Shown: one piece after another, positions 58,414 through 61,951 of the stretch | Layout of the letters: each line of letters opens with the position of its first letter | Position numbering within the stretch: the stretch's first letter is position 1 | Assembly (NCBI RefSeq): GCF_947498095.1 | Contig: NZ_CANMJE010000001.1 | Coordinates: 1-64,000, forward strand | DNA: 64,000 nucleotides | From: an uncultured Shimia sp. | GTDB lineage: Bacteria; Pseudomonadota; Alphaproteobacteria; Rhodobacterales; Rhodobacteraceae | Reading direction: 5' to 3' | Notes under the pieces: generated by a model | Databases searched by the model: none | What the model saw: the letters and a program-made list of their open reading frames with translations, nothing else | Told to the model about the DNA's origin: nothing | Made by a program: the position numbers and the translations under genes

Positions 58414-58839
58414 TCAGGAGTCAAGCAATGCGTCCGGGTTGCTGACAGGTCGCGCCTCGATCACGACAAAGGCCTGCGCCCAAGGGTGGTCATCTGTCAG
58501 TGTGACGTGAACGATCGCCTCGTGACCCGCAGGCGTCATGTCTTTCAAACGCTCTGCCGCCCAACCGGTCACATGCATTACGGGTTGGCCGGTGCGCAGG
58601 TTGCTCACCGCCATATCTTTCCAGCTGATACCCATCCGCAAACCAGTGCCCAGCGCCTTGGAACAGGCCTCTTTCGCGGCCCAGCGCTTGGCATATGTGC
58701 CAACCGTATCGCGGCGACGCTCGGCCTTGGCCTGTTCGACTTCGGTAAACACACGGTTGCGAAAACGGTCGCCGAAACGGTCCAACGTATTTGCGATGCG
58801 ATCTATGTTCGCAAGATCTGTACCAATTCCAAGGATCAT
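58414..58839 (-). CDS. acpS: Holo-[acyl-carrier-protein] synthase
   Basis: 141 residues. [20 protein letters not shown] carries the metal-binding Asp; [15 protein letters not shown] is the second motif, with Trp in place of the common Phe. It transfers phosphopantetheine from CoA to ACP. In this family acpS is normally next to pdxJ; here a three-gene cassette separates them. Confidence 0.93.
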
Positions 58840-58924: not shown

Positions 58925-59914
58925 TCAGTGCCCAATCCAAGCCCGGGCGTCATCCAGTATGGTCTTGCCTGTCGCGCTCAGGTCGCCATGTTGGTCGATC
59001 ACACCCAAGCCTTTGGCATAGTTGCTCCGATCCACGGCAGCCATCGCCATAGCGCGCTCATGATCATCATCTGACAGACACCCACTGGATGCGAGCATCT
59101 CCATCGCCCATGCCATGCGCGCCGAAACATAGGTTGCGTGATAAATTCCATCCATAGGCCGTGAATCCAAACGCAATGGAGACGTGAACAGCTCTTCATC
59201 TGGGTTCAGAACCAGTGGTTCTTCAATGGTCATGCCAAACAACAGCGAATGCGAGGCTTCGTGCGCGAGCACCTCAACAATAGCGAGCGGGGTCTTGTGA
59301 TGCTTGGGATTTAGCATCAGAAGGCCCCAAAACTGATAGTGAGAGGCCCCGTCAAACTGCATCTTGTCTCCGGATGGCGCCCGTGCCAGCAACACCTCGT
59401 GGACGATTGATCGTAATTCCCCGTACAACTCCGACAGGTTTTGTCGGAGTAGATCAAGTCCTTCGTCCAAAAGCATTTGAAAATCGGCGGCTTCAGTGGC
59501 GGTAATTGGCGCCAACCGCAACCCATCGTCTATCAAATCAAGACTAAGACTGTCTGCCTCGGAGGCTCCAAAATAGGTGAGCTTCAGCGAGGCAGAGCGA
59601 TCAGGCGCAGCTTCGATTTTTTGTAAAAGTGTTTCAGCATGGTGTTGGTCCTCGGCCACGAGAGCTTGCACGAGAAGAAAATAGGCACGGAACACCTGCG
59701 GCCTTACACGTCGGCCCATGCGAATGGCGTCCGCAACCTCAACTAACCTTCGAGAAATTTCCGGAAAACTATCCTTGGACGCATTGGACAGATGTCCAAG
59801 GCTACTTGCAAGCTCAATGTGCATGCGCGCATCGAGCGCACGTCCTCGAGCAGCGCACGGCACGAAATTCGTGAGTGTATTGCGGTCAACAACAGACTTT
59901 TCAGGCGCAGACAT
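58925..59914 (-). CDS. HExxH protein resembling aKG-HExxH-type peptide beta-hydroxylases
   Basis: 329 residues from the ATG at 59914, which has AGGG close upstream; a TTG at 59944 would add ten residues. Key motif EVLAHEASHSLLFG with H218-E219-A220-S221-H222, preceded by DGASHYQFWGLLMLNP and followed by a RPMDGIYHATYVSARMAWAM block. This HExxH plus R-P-(M/L)-x-G-(I/L)-x-H-A pattern is what I associate with the mod_HExxH family (TIGR04267), found in RiPP clusters and now named as alpha-ketoglutarate-dependent peptide hydroxylases. The gene follows a small Lys/Gly-rich peptide gene by 39 bp. Assignment is by pattern memory; an unrelated metallopeptidase is the alternative. Confidence 0.68.
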   Translation of the reverse strand: MSAPEKSVVDRNTLTNFVPCAARGRALDARMHIELASSLGHLSNASKDSFPEISRRLVEVADAIRMGRRVRPQVFRAYFLLVQALVAEDQHHAETLLQKIEAAPDRSASLKLTYFGASEADSLSLDLIDDGLRLAPITATEAADFQMLLDEGLDLLRQNLSELYGELRSIVHEVLLARAPSGDKMQFDGASHYQFWGLLMLNPKHHKTPLAIVEVLAHEASHSLLFGMTIEEPLVLNPDEELFTSPLRLDSRPMDGIYHATYVSARMAWAMEMLASSGCLSDDDHERAMAMAAVDRSNYAKGLGVIDQHGDLSATGKTILDDARAWIGH

Positions 59915-59953
59915 TTCAGCCCTGTTCTCAACGAGGCGCGTCAACAGATTTAG

Positions 59954-60148
59954 TTAACGAACAGGCTTCTTTCCATCTTTTACACCGACCTTGTCGCCAG
60001 CTTTTTCGCCCAGTTTGGTTGCAAGGGCTGCCTTTGAAATAGCACCGCGTTTGTCACCGACCTTGGCGCTCATGACGGCCTCATTTGCCTGATCTGCAAC
60101 CAACCGGTATCCTAATAACTTTTTGAAATCGATTTTCATTACAGCCAC
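59954..60148 (-). CDS. Small Lys/Gly-rich peptide, candidate RiPP precursor
   Basis: 64 residues from a GTG at 60148 with AAAGGA 8-9 bp upstream; an ATG three codons later has worse spacing. The first half (KIDFKKLLGYRLVADQANEA) looks leader-like and amphipathic. The second half is low complexity with spaced Lys, Gly and Asp (GEKAGDKVGVKDGKKPVR), a plausible core. No known family is recognised. It is followed by the HExxH gene and faces the ATP-grasp gene. As an alternative it could be an unrelated small basic protein. Confidence 0.6.
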   Translation of the reverse strand: MAVMKIDFKKLLGYRLVADQANEAVMSAKVGDKRGAISKAALATKLGEKAGDKVGVKDGKKPVR

Positions 60149-60175
60149 AGTGTGTATCCTTTGATTGTTCCGATC

Positions 60176-60206
60176 TTAGTAAATGGACCAACAGGTGCTA
60201 TGTCAA
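60176..60206 (-). promoter_or_regulatory. Candidate sigma-70 promoter for the small peptide gene
   Basis: On the minus strand TTGACA (60201-60206) is followed after 17-19 bp by TTTACTAAG (-10-like TTACTA or TACTAA), about 30 bp before the GTG. The -35 hexamer overlaps the start codon of the divergent ATP-grasp gene. Confidence 0.45.
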
Positions 60207-61216
60207 CGAAATCCTATTTGACGGGAATGCATTTACTCCCACTTGGCCGCAATGCGCCGCGACTGATTTCGGTAACATCAATGCGTCAGCGGTACACGTT
60301 GCAGGCCGTCACGAAGTTGATGCGCCAACGCGGCATTCGTCATGAGCGCTGGACATATGAACAGCTATTTACGCGCCGCCGATTGCCGAGAGCCGTCTAT
60401 ATTCTGACAGATTTCGACCGCGTCCATCCCTGGTACCTGGAGGTTGCATCGCTGATCCGGCAAAAGTTGCAGAACGAAGGCTTGGTGGTTTTGAACGATC
60501 CACGCAAATACATGCCGCGCGATGCATTTCTTAGACGCCTCTACAATGAAGGCATAAACAGCTTTAACTGTTGGCGCCCCGTGGCCGGTGAATGGCCCGA
60601 TCGTTTCCCTGTCTTTCTAAGAACCATCCATGCGCATCGCGGTGTCATAAGCGATCTGTTGAACGACCGACACGAAACCGAGGCAGCAATGGAGCACGCT
60701 TTGCAACATGGAAAAGCTATGAGTGACCTCATGTTCATCGAGTACTGCGCACAAGCCCAGCCTGACGGCGGCCATTTTCGGAAATTCGCCAGTTACGCTG
60801 TTAACAACAAGATAATCCGCGCCGCGACCGTGTCGGAATCGCGCTGGATCGCGAAACTGGGTGAGCGTGGTGTGGCGACGAAATCGGAGTATGAACAAGA
60901 CCACGCGGAACAACAAAGCGATCCACATCACGACGTCATGCAACGTGTCTTTGAACTGGCGGGAATGGAGTTCGGTCGCATTGATTTCGGCCTCGTGGAC
61001 GGCAAGCCAGAAATCTATGAACTGAACACCAATCCCGTTATTAAGTGGCCCAAGAAACACGAGAGTAAGAGACGATTAGATACGCTGAAAATCATGCGTG
61101 AGTCGGTCATTCAGGCGCTTGCGGACATGAATTATCCGGACCCCAAGGGTCATGTTGATCTGTCTGATATCTGGCATCGCTGGAACAAAGGCGCGCGAGG
61201 TTTCGAGCAGCCCTGA
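60200..61216 (+). CDS. RimK-like ATP-grasp protein, divergent from the peptide gene
   Basis: 338 residues from the ATG at 60200 (MSTKSYLTGMHLLPLGRNAP) with ACAGGT upstream; the frame opens at 60152. N-terminal YTLQAVTKLMRQRGIRHERW, then a D-F-D-R-V-H segment, LNDPRKYMPRDAFLRRLYNE (substrate-loop), a central FIEYCAQ, and the C-terminal ATP/Mg motif FGRIDFGLVDGKPEIYELNT-NP, characteristic of ATP-grasp ligases. It probably forms an amide, ester or peptide bond. With the HExxH protein and the peptide it suggests a peptide-tailoring system. It ends exactly where pdxJ ends, head to head. Confidence 0.68.
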   Translation: MSTKSYLTGMHLLPLGRNAPRLISVTSMRQRYTLQAVTKLMRQRGIRHERWTYEQLFTRRRLPRAVYILTDFDRVHPWYLEVASLIRQKLQNEGLVVLNDPRKYMPRDAFLRRLYNEGINSFNCWRPVAGEWPDRFPVFLRTIHAHRGVISDLLNDRHETEAAMEHALQHGKAMSDLMFIEYCAQAQPDGGHFRKFASYAVNNKIIRAATVSESRWIAKLGERGVATKSEYEQDHAEQQSDPHHDVMQRVFELAGMEFGRIDFGLVDGKPEIYELNTNPVIKWPKKHESKRRLDTLKIMRESVIQALADMNYPDPKGHVDLSDIWHRWNKGARGFEQP

Positions 61217-61951
61217 TCAAGCGCGCGCCTCGTCCATCAGACGCCGCATTTCGCGAATGGCAGGGTCAAGCCCGGCAAATATGGCCTCGCCTATCAGAAA
61301 GTGACCGATGTTCAGCTCCTTCACTTTTGGGAATGCCGCAACGGATTGTACCGTCTCATACGTCAGGCCATGTCCGGCGTGAACCTCAAGCCCCAGTGAA
61401 TGAGCGAAGGCCGACATGTCGCGCAGGCGTTCCAGCTCTGCATCACGTTCGTCAAAGCGGCCCTCTGCGTGGAAATCGCAATAGGCACCCGTATGCAATT
61501 CAATCACTTGCGCACCGATGCGGTTTGCGGCTTCGATTTGCCTCGCATCCGCTGCAATAAAGATCGACACCCGACAGCCGACCTCACGCAATGGGGCAAT
61601 GAAATGCGCCAATTTGTTTTCCTCGCGTGACACTTCAAGGCCGCCCTCGGTGGTGCGCTCTTCACGCTTTTCCGGCACGATACAGACTGCATGTGGCTTG
61701 TGGCGCAATGCGATGGCCTGCATTTCGTCTGTTGCTGCCATTTCAAAGTTAAGAGGAACGCTCAGCGCATCCATCAGACCGTCGATGTCTTCATCCATAA
61801 TGTGGCGACGATCTTCTCGCAGATGAGCGGTAATACCATCGGCACCTGCTTGTTCGGCAACTTTGGCCGCGCGCACCGGATCAGGATAGGCACCACCGCG
61901 TGCATTCCGCACCGTGGCCACATGGTCAATATTCACACCAAGACGCAACAT
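61217..61951 (-). CDS. pdxJ: Pyridoxine 5'-phosphate synthase
   Basis: 244 residues. [60 protein letters not shown] and [20 protein letters not shown] are the PdxJ TIM-barrel motifs; INDH-type His and the loop-4 residues are kept. It condenses 1-deoxyxylulose 5-phosphate with 3-amino-2-oxopropyl phosphate in vitamin B6 synthesis. Confidence 0.95.

Follow-up and report, generated by a model that had tools for sequence, protein, structure and literature searches.

The contig NZ_CANMJE010000001.1 of an uncultured Shimia sp. (assembly GCF_947498095.1), of which a stretch of 64,000 nucleotides was analysed (the window), harbors three adjoining genes encoding an HExxH protein, a lysine- and glycine-rich peptide and a divergent ATP-grasp protein. 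Taken as a whole, they are best explained as a minimal cassette of the type known from ribosomally synthesized and post-translationally modified peptides (RiPPs), in which the ATP-grasp enzyme would acylate lysines and the HExxH protein would hydroxylate the repeats of the same peptide, an explanation to which we give an even chance. Enzyme families, conserved active-site residues, precursor architecture and co-inheritance of the genes emerge from sequence comparisons and structure models. From these we infer a joint function, with both enzymes very probably acting on this peptide; that its lysines are the ligation site is about as probable as that they are not, and that the acyl group joined to their side chains is an external one is put forward somewhat more tentatively. 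Gene sets of this kind recur in many bacteria, which points to a so far unstudied class of modified peptides, i.e., a widespread candidate RiPP class with a precursor signature of its own. The features of the cassette are as follows:

58925..59944, minus strand: gene for the predicted aKG-HExxH-type peptide oxygenase; start TTG 59944 or ATG 59914
59954..60148, minus strand: gene for the precursor-like peptide of 64 amino acids; GTG start, in-frame ATG 60139; relatives have similar peptides in the same position
60101..60133, minus strand: leader motif of the precursor, I-D-F-K-K-L-L-G-Y-R-L
59966..60067, minus strand: repeat core of K-x-G and G-x-K units (K29, 33, 39, 45, 49, 53, 57, 60, 61)
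60152..61216, plus strand: divergent ATP-grasp ligase of the RimK/LysX fold; likely start ATG 60200

A first-pass annotation of the window, made from the letters alone, had read this locus as a possible RiPP-type unit, and this reading is supported. All three open reading frames are present as it described them, the HExxH protein contains both HEASH and RPMDGIYHA, the latter matching the R-P-M-x-G-I-Y-H-A block it had named, and the peptide said to be Lys/Gly-rich has 12 Lys and 7 Gly among its 64 residues. The unit was also called compact. The peptide and HExxH genes are nearly contiguous on the minus strand, and, as a correction, the ATP-grasp gene is transcribed divergently from them.

The precursor peptide

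For comparison 66 precursors were assembled, namely 55 hits of a regular expression minus eight removed by eye, plus 16 added by eye (some of them trimmed to an internal Met), the window peptide and two more; one further precursor brings the number to 67. Picking mostly used the LLG-F/Y-K/R motif, including position -2, together with one or two GxK/GK units as a minimum. The precursors have a common leader, L-D-x-(S/T)-(K/R)-L-L-G-(F/Y)-(K/R)-(L/I). When all 67 are aligned at L-L-G-F/Y, Leu is found at position -11 in 55, Asp at -10, four residues ahead of LLG, in 62, Lys or Arg at -7, directly ahead of LLG, in 61, and Lys or Arg at -2 in 64; neither -10 nor -7 had been used in picking. In the cores of the 66 peptides, two lysines lie at a distance of four 193 times compared to 54 in shuffled sequences (z 20.8), and Gly stands two residues before Lys 279 times compared to 76 (z 29.1). 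This makes the core a (G-x-K-x)n repeat, in which the residue after Lys is often aliphatic. K-x-G occurs at least once in all 67 precursors, and 339 of the 405 tail lysines are part of a KxG or GxK unit. Among seven Burkholderiales copies the pooled ratio of nonsynonymous to synonymous polymorphism (pN/pS) of the peptide reading frame is 0.46, consistent with a translated gene. Small precursor gene, conserved leader, repetitive core and adjoining modifying enzymes, as expected of a RiPP, are found, and a modified and released product is predicted.

Several loci carry variants of this precursor. A Histidinibacterium locus (L040 3631-7999, same as L021) has six precursors with clearly varied core types and two ATP-grasp genes, and in an alphaproteobacterial locus (L136 8626-11936) the HExxH gene is flanked by two ATP-grasp genes and the precursor has LKEGKP repeats. 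Precursors with an LLGYW leader and a single LKMGxKG...KFFGG core are present in L043 (6664-7996, same as L147), which is without an ATP-grasp gene, and in L046. Beside an HExxH and ATP-grasp pair in L090 (6827-6952) there is a short peptide that has LDASKLLG but lacks FKL and whose core is degenerate; it may be a precursor in decay or one of another kind.

The two enzymes

The HExxH protein of the window scores 92.3 bits against TIGR04267 (cut-off 40), and this family is matched by all 35 aligned HExxH members, the window protein included (E 0.01). For modelling, the window protein was aligned with 34 of 64 relatives. H228, E229, H232 and H269 (P0001 numbering) are invariant in the window protein and seven relatives, and their equivalents are also invariant in the alignment of 35 sequences. 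Since the window protein combines the HExxH motif, the third conserved His and the fold of ChlH, its assignment as an aKG-HExxH-type peptide oxygenase, with a predicted 2-oxoglutarate-dependent hydroxylation, is supported by sequence as well as by the structure model. The relation to peptide hydroxylases presumed in the first-pass annotation is thus borne out by both sequence and fold.

The ATP-grasp protein had been called RimK-like, which is correct for the fold, as RimK, ArgX and LysX are the nearest folds of its predicted structure, but not for the sequence models: it reaches 15.6 bits against the RimK family TIGR00768, far below the curated cut-off of 143.4. The likeness therefore rests on the fold, since sequence models detect RimK weakly. 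The start is likely ATG 60200, because residues 1-18 of the model have a predicted local distance difference test score below 50. Modelling used an alignment of the window protein with 39 of 47 relatives; of the other eight, two are truncated and six have no suitable ATG. No graspetide synthetase model is among the NCBIfam matches of 40 ATP-grasp members (E up to 0.01), and the window protein is, as judged from its sequence, not recognisably a graspetide synthetase. The R2K clade of ATP-grasp proteins (CDC123), in which the strand-2 lysine is absolutely conserved according to the part of PMC4431377 available, was set aside, because the equivalent of this lysine was read as Arg (R157) and DUF4343 was not matched. 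The ATP-grasp family, which has no match in Pfam, is here paired with an oxygenase family that was recognised recently.

A one-protein scan of genome contigs for close relatives gave 103 pattern matches, none of them a relative, and a plasmid collection gave four and two distant records, none of which spans 80% of the query. ATP-grasp relatives without an HExxH gene in the stretch examined (L023-L027, L137-L141) lie in several cases near methyltransferase-like genes (Pfam-tested in L026) and TctA-like genes, some near ATP-binding cassette (ABC) transporters.

Occurrence and co-inheritance of the cassette

Among 295 genomes sampled from the family, 12 encode ATP-grasp relatives and 13 match TIGR04267 above cut-off, eight of the latter being cassette genomes. 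Both enzymes are encoded in eight genomes, that of the window included (hypergeometric P 5e-10), and are adjacent in all eight, by which chance neighbors are rejected; one to six small peptides adjoin the two genes there. A sample of 385 genomes of the class contains ATP-grasp relatives in five, and among the four besides the window genome one has an HExxH gene and a precursor adjoining.

Moreover, two patterns derived from the aligned HExxH proteins were run against 84,980 species genomes, giving 110 stretches and 89 relatives, the best 80 of which were used. This set of HExxH loci, some of them cut by contig ends, is therefore biased to near relatives. It comprises 46 loci with a RimK-like ATP-grasp (class A), 19 with a cyanophycin-synthetase-like ATP-grasp (class B), nine with an AMP-binding ligase only and six with none of these, and a precursor was seen in 42, 12, none and two of them, respectively. 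The first-pass annotation had proposed asking whether the three genes co-occur elsewhere, and their homologs do so in many genomes. In 38 of the 46 class A loci the ATP-grasp gene is likewise on the strand opposite to the HExxH gene. Most of the carriers belong to the Alpha-, Beta- and Gammaproteobacteria; a few others are metagenome bins assigned to Verrucomicrobiota, Acidobacteriota, Planctomycetota or Cyanobacteriota, perhaps as a result of mis-binning.

In 44 loci (two of the 46 class A loci being left out) pairwise distances among the HExxH proteins correlate with those among the ATP-grasp proteins, with r 0.855 and Spearman 0.70, compared to a maximum of 0.199 in 2000 permutations. On a quick tree of the HExxH proteins, drawn without two of the 80, the ligase types cluster, with 10 changes compared to a shuffled mean of 29.2.

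RimK-like and cyanophycin-synthetase-like ATP-grasp proteins never occur in the same locus (0/80). The class B partner has about 620 amino acids and scores well below the cyanophycin synthetase cut-offs; the label comes from NCBIfam for four partner proteins and one in L082, and from a profile of 14 partners for the others, with L078 called only weakly (94 bits). In class B loci (among them L059, L064, L068, L073, L080-L083, L085 and L087) the same HExxH protein stands with the same kind of precursor (LYGFK/LLGFK), and the swap of ligases beside one kind of precursor may represent two independent routes to the same chemistry.

Relation to known systems

The aKG-HExxH peptide oxygenases ChlBH/ChlH, BpmH, PflC/PosC and PesO share the family TIGR04267 with the HExxH protein of the window, and the likeness to ChlH comprises the fold, the HExxH motif and the R-P-x-x-G-x-x-H-A block. 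As far as the available parts of the sources go, the known enzymes act on RiPP precursors (PMC12636437, PMC13060819), hydroxylate His, Asp, Phe, Gln and Pro (PMC13060819), and have radical S-adenosylmethionine, multinuclear non-heme iron-dependent oxidative (MNIO) or asparagine-synthetase-like enzymes as partners, whereas the partner here is an ATP-grasp enzyme, a term absent from the texts of PMC12636437 and PMC13060819.

The first-pass annotation considered peptide hydroxylation plus ATP-grasp ligation on one precursor unusual. It is not without precedent, since the combination is known in the abstract from corallotide and from SmaO/SmaX, which work with other hydroxylases and graspetide synthetases. 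According to the part of PMC13097080 available, corallotide is a group 15 graspetide with the TIGR04187 graspetide synthetase CorB, the PF13640 oxygenase CorC and KxxxD repeats; in group 18, SmaO/SmaX act as hydroxylases on a graspetide precursor. Common to these systems and the cassette are an ATP-grasp enzyme and an iron/2-oxoglutarate hydroxylase in one ribosomal peptide pathway and, for corallotide, repeated lysine motifs. The cassette differs from what is described there by its HExxH hydroxylase, an ATP-grasp enzyme that fits no model and a repeat without a conserved acid; PF13640 is not matched by any of the three window proteins (E 1). In contrast to RimK, LysX and ArgX, the window ATP-grasp is below the RimK cut-off and the cassette contains no lysine-biosynthesis or ribosomal-protein gene. 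A ligase like cyanophycin synthetase (CphA) stands beside the same kind of HExxH protein and precursor in related loci, not in the window.

In elongation factor P (EF-P) and eIF5A a lysine within a Gly-flanked loop is extended at its amine and hydroxylated, by beta-lysylation plus hydroxylation and as hypusine, respectively. However, those modifications are made by other enzymes and at one site of a folded protein, so this is an analogy only.

In titles and abstracts of the open-licence literature (subscription papers and supplements being outside this scope) no HExxH protein with an ATP-grasp enzyme in a RiPP is described, and none of six precursor strings is printed in that literature; PMC8939145, a survey of graspetides, mentions neither HEXXH nor cyanophycin in its main text. 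The leader motif can be used for genome mining, and three small genes make a clear and cheap experiment possible.

Proposed function and alternative explanations

In the proposed mechanism, the leader would be recognised by both enzymes and bring the peptide to them. The HExxH protein, dependent on iron and 2-oxoglutarate, would hydroxylate repeat residues at several sites, and the ATP-grasp enzyme would activate a carboxylate as acyl phosphate and form amides in the repeats. What is joined onto the lysine side chains would most likely be a free amino acid or another small carboxylate, which would make the product a decorated lysine ladder rather than a macrocycle. Because no dedicated gene recurred, leader removal and export are probably carried out by the general machinery of the cell: neither an exporter nor a protease family is recurrent in the neighbor clustering or Pfam counts of the loci, and among 143 class A neighbors (at most four per locus from 39 of the 46 loci, six near-identical Burkholderiales loci being excluded) ABC_tran and Peptidase_S26 are matched three times each, the latter at least partly by lepB of the acpS region.

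Acylation of lysine by an external carboxylate is favored, as the reactive residue that is conserved is lysine, whereas no acid is conserved. Also in favor of the proposal are the nearest folds RimK, ArgX and LysX, all of them ligases of amino acids onto proteins. Several points weigh against the proposal. These three enzymes normally activate the carboxylate of the protein and not that of the incoming amino acid, so that lysine acylation would reverse the usual polarity. Some Asp or Glu is present in 44 of 67 cores, which leaves an intramolecular link open for those. Four of the 12 ATP-grasp genomes of the family (26-29% identity) have no HExxH gene in the stretch examined, and neither have three of the five of the class sample, one of them on a 10.7 kb contig. 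Furthermore, since the LLG-F/Y-K/R motif and GxK/GK units had served to pick the precursors, only the other leader positions and the spacing count as independent evidence.

Among the alternatives, a graspetide-like cassette comes first, although we regard it as unlikely. As in corallotide, the ATP-grasp enzyme would link lysines of the repeats within the peptide, by amides, to side chains of Asp/Glu or to the C-terminal carboxylate, with the HExxH protein hydroxylating ring residues. Only six of 67 precursors have no Asp or Glu anywhere past the leader. However, 23 of 66 cores are without any acidic residue, and elsewhere these residues are scattered, with the Lys of 248 KxG units being preceded by Asp in 10 and by Glu in four. 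Without a conserved Asp/Glu a standard graspetide is unlikely, and it is lowered further by the missing graspetide model match among the 40 members and by KxxxD, which follows the leader in two of 66 precursors and is absent from the window peptide.

Slightly less probable is an addition of amino acids to the C-terminus of the peptide in the manner of RimK or cyanophycin synthetase, with the HExxH protein hydroxylating the repeats independently. The nearest folds RimK, ArgX and LysX as well as the alternative cyanophycin-synthetase-like partner speak for it, and such enzymes use the peptide carboxylate; yet the C-termini vary widely by eye while the repeats are conserved, and their multiple copies would be unexplained.

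It is improbable, but would yield a ribosomally templated peptide-polysaccharide conjugate, that the ATP-grasp enzyme joins the lysine amines of the ribosomal peptide to carboxylates of a cell-surface glycan, e.g., of uronic acids. Teichuronopeptide is a peptide-polysaccharide conjugate, to which this would be a genetically encoded counterpart. About 10 class A loci, among those listed, lie among polysaccharide genes when translations are read by eye, and in four of them (L049, L051, L060, L067) this setting was borne out gene by gene with Pfam. A polysaccharide flippase (Pfam Polysacc_synt_3) is encoded between the HExxH and ATP-grasp genes in L049 (7465-8940) and L051 (4911-6401), and a TupA-like ATP-grasp nearby in L060 and L067. 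The window cassette has no polysaccharide genes as neighbors. Glycos_transf_2, Epimerase and Glycos_transf_1 are matched six, five and three times among the 143 class A neighbors and at most once each among 66 class B neighbors from 19 loci, a small difference without a genome-wide control, so that the polysaccharide link is a lead. On a Paracoccus plasmid (L167 4229-5278) an ATP-grasp relative annotated as hypothetical directly follows an oligosaccharide flippase gene and adjoins genes for O-antigen ligase and glycosyltransferase, in surroundings without an annotated HExxH gene.

That the HExxH protein is a zinc metalloprotease which trims the peptide, leaving the ATP-grasp enzyme as sole modifier, is very improbable: HExxH is the classical protease motif and the related PflC is proteolytic without its leader, as stated in the available part of PMC12636437, but the likeness to peptide hydroxylases, including the ChlH fold, led us to reject this reading. 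Finally, unrelated neighbors, as might be suggested by the location between housekeeping genes, the lack of a transporter or protease of its own and the ATP-grasp gene on the other strand, are next to impossible, since the same set occupies different positions in different genomes, occurs in several classes of bacteria and shows correlated divergence.

Genomic surroundings

The gene order in the window is acpS, HExxH gene, peptide gene, ATP-grasp gene, pdxJ, with two housekeeping flanks outside the system:

58414..58839, minus strand: acpS, by homology; the neighbor of the Actibacterium cassette matches Pfam ACPS
61217..61951, minus strand: pdxJ, by homology; Pfam PdxJ in two of the 143 class A neighbors

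An acpS ortholog is found on this side of the cassette in five of the eight family genomes that have one. In five of the eight, two of them with extra intervening sequence, acpS and pdxJ flank the cassette, which is located elsewhere in the other three. A scan for promoters and terminators gave no more matches than expected by chance, and the RNA fold of the divergent promoter region has a z of 0.64. In a genome of the same genus (L150 188-1501) the acpS-pdxJ gap contains other reading frames and neither enzyme was matched, so the cassette has probably been lost or gained recently. HExxH proteins of the same family near AMP-binding ligases, with no lysine-repeat precursor found, are encoded in L091, L094, L096, L100-L102, L104, L106 and L107, and the L091 locus also has carrier and thioesterase domains.
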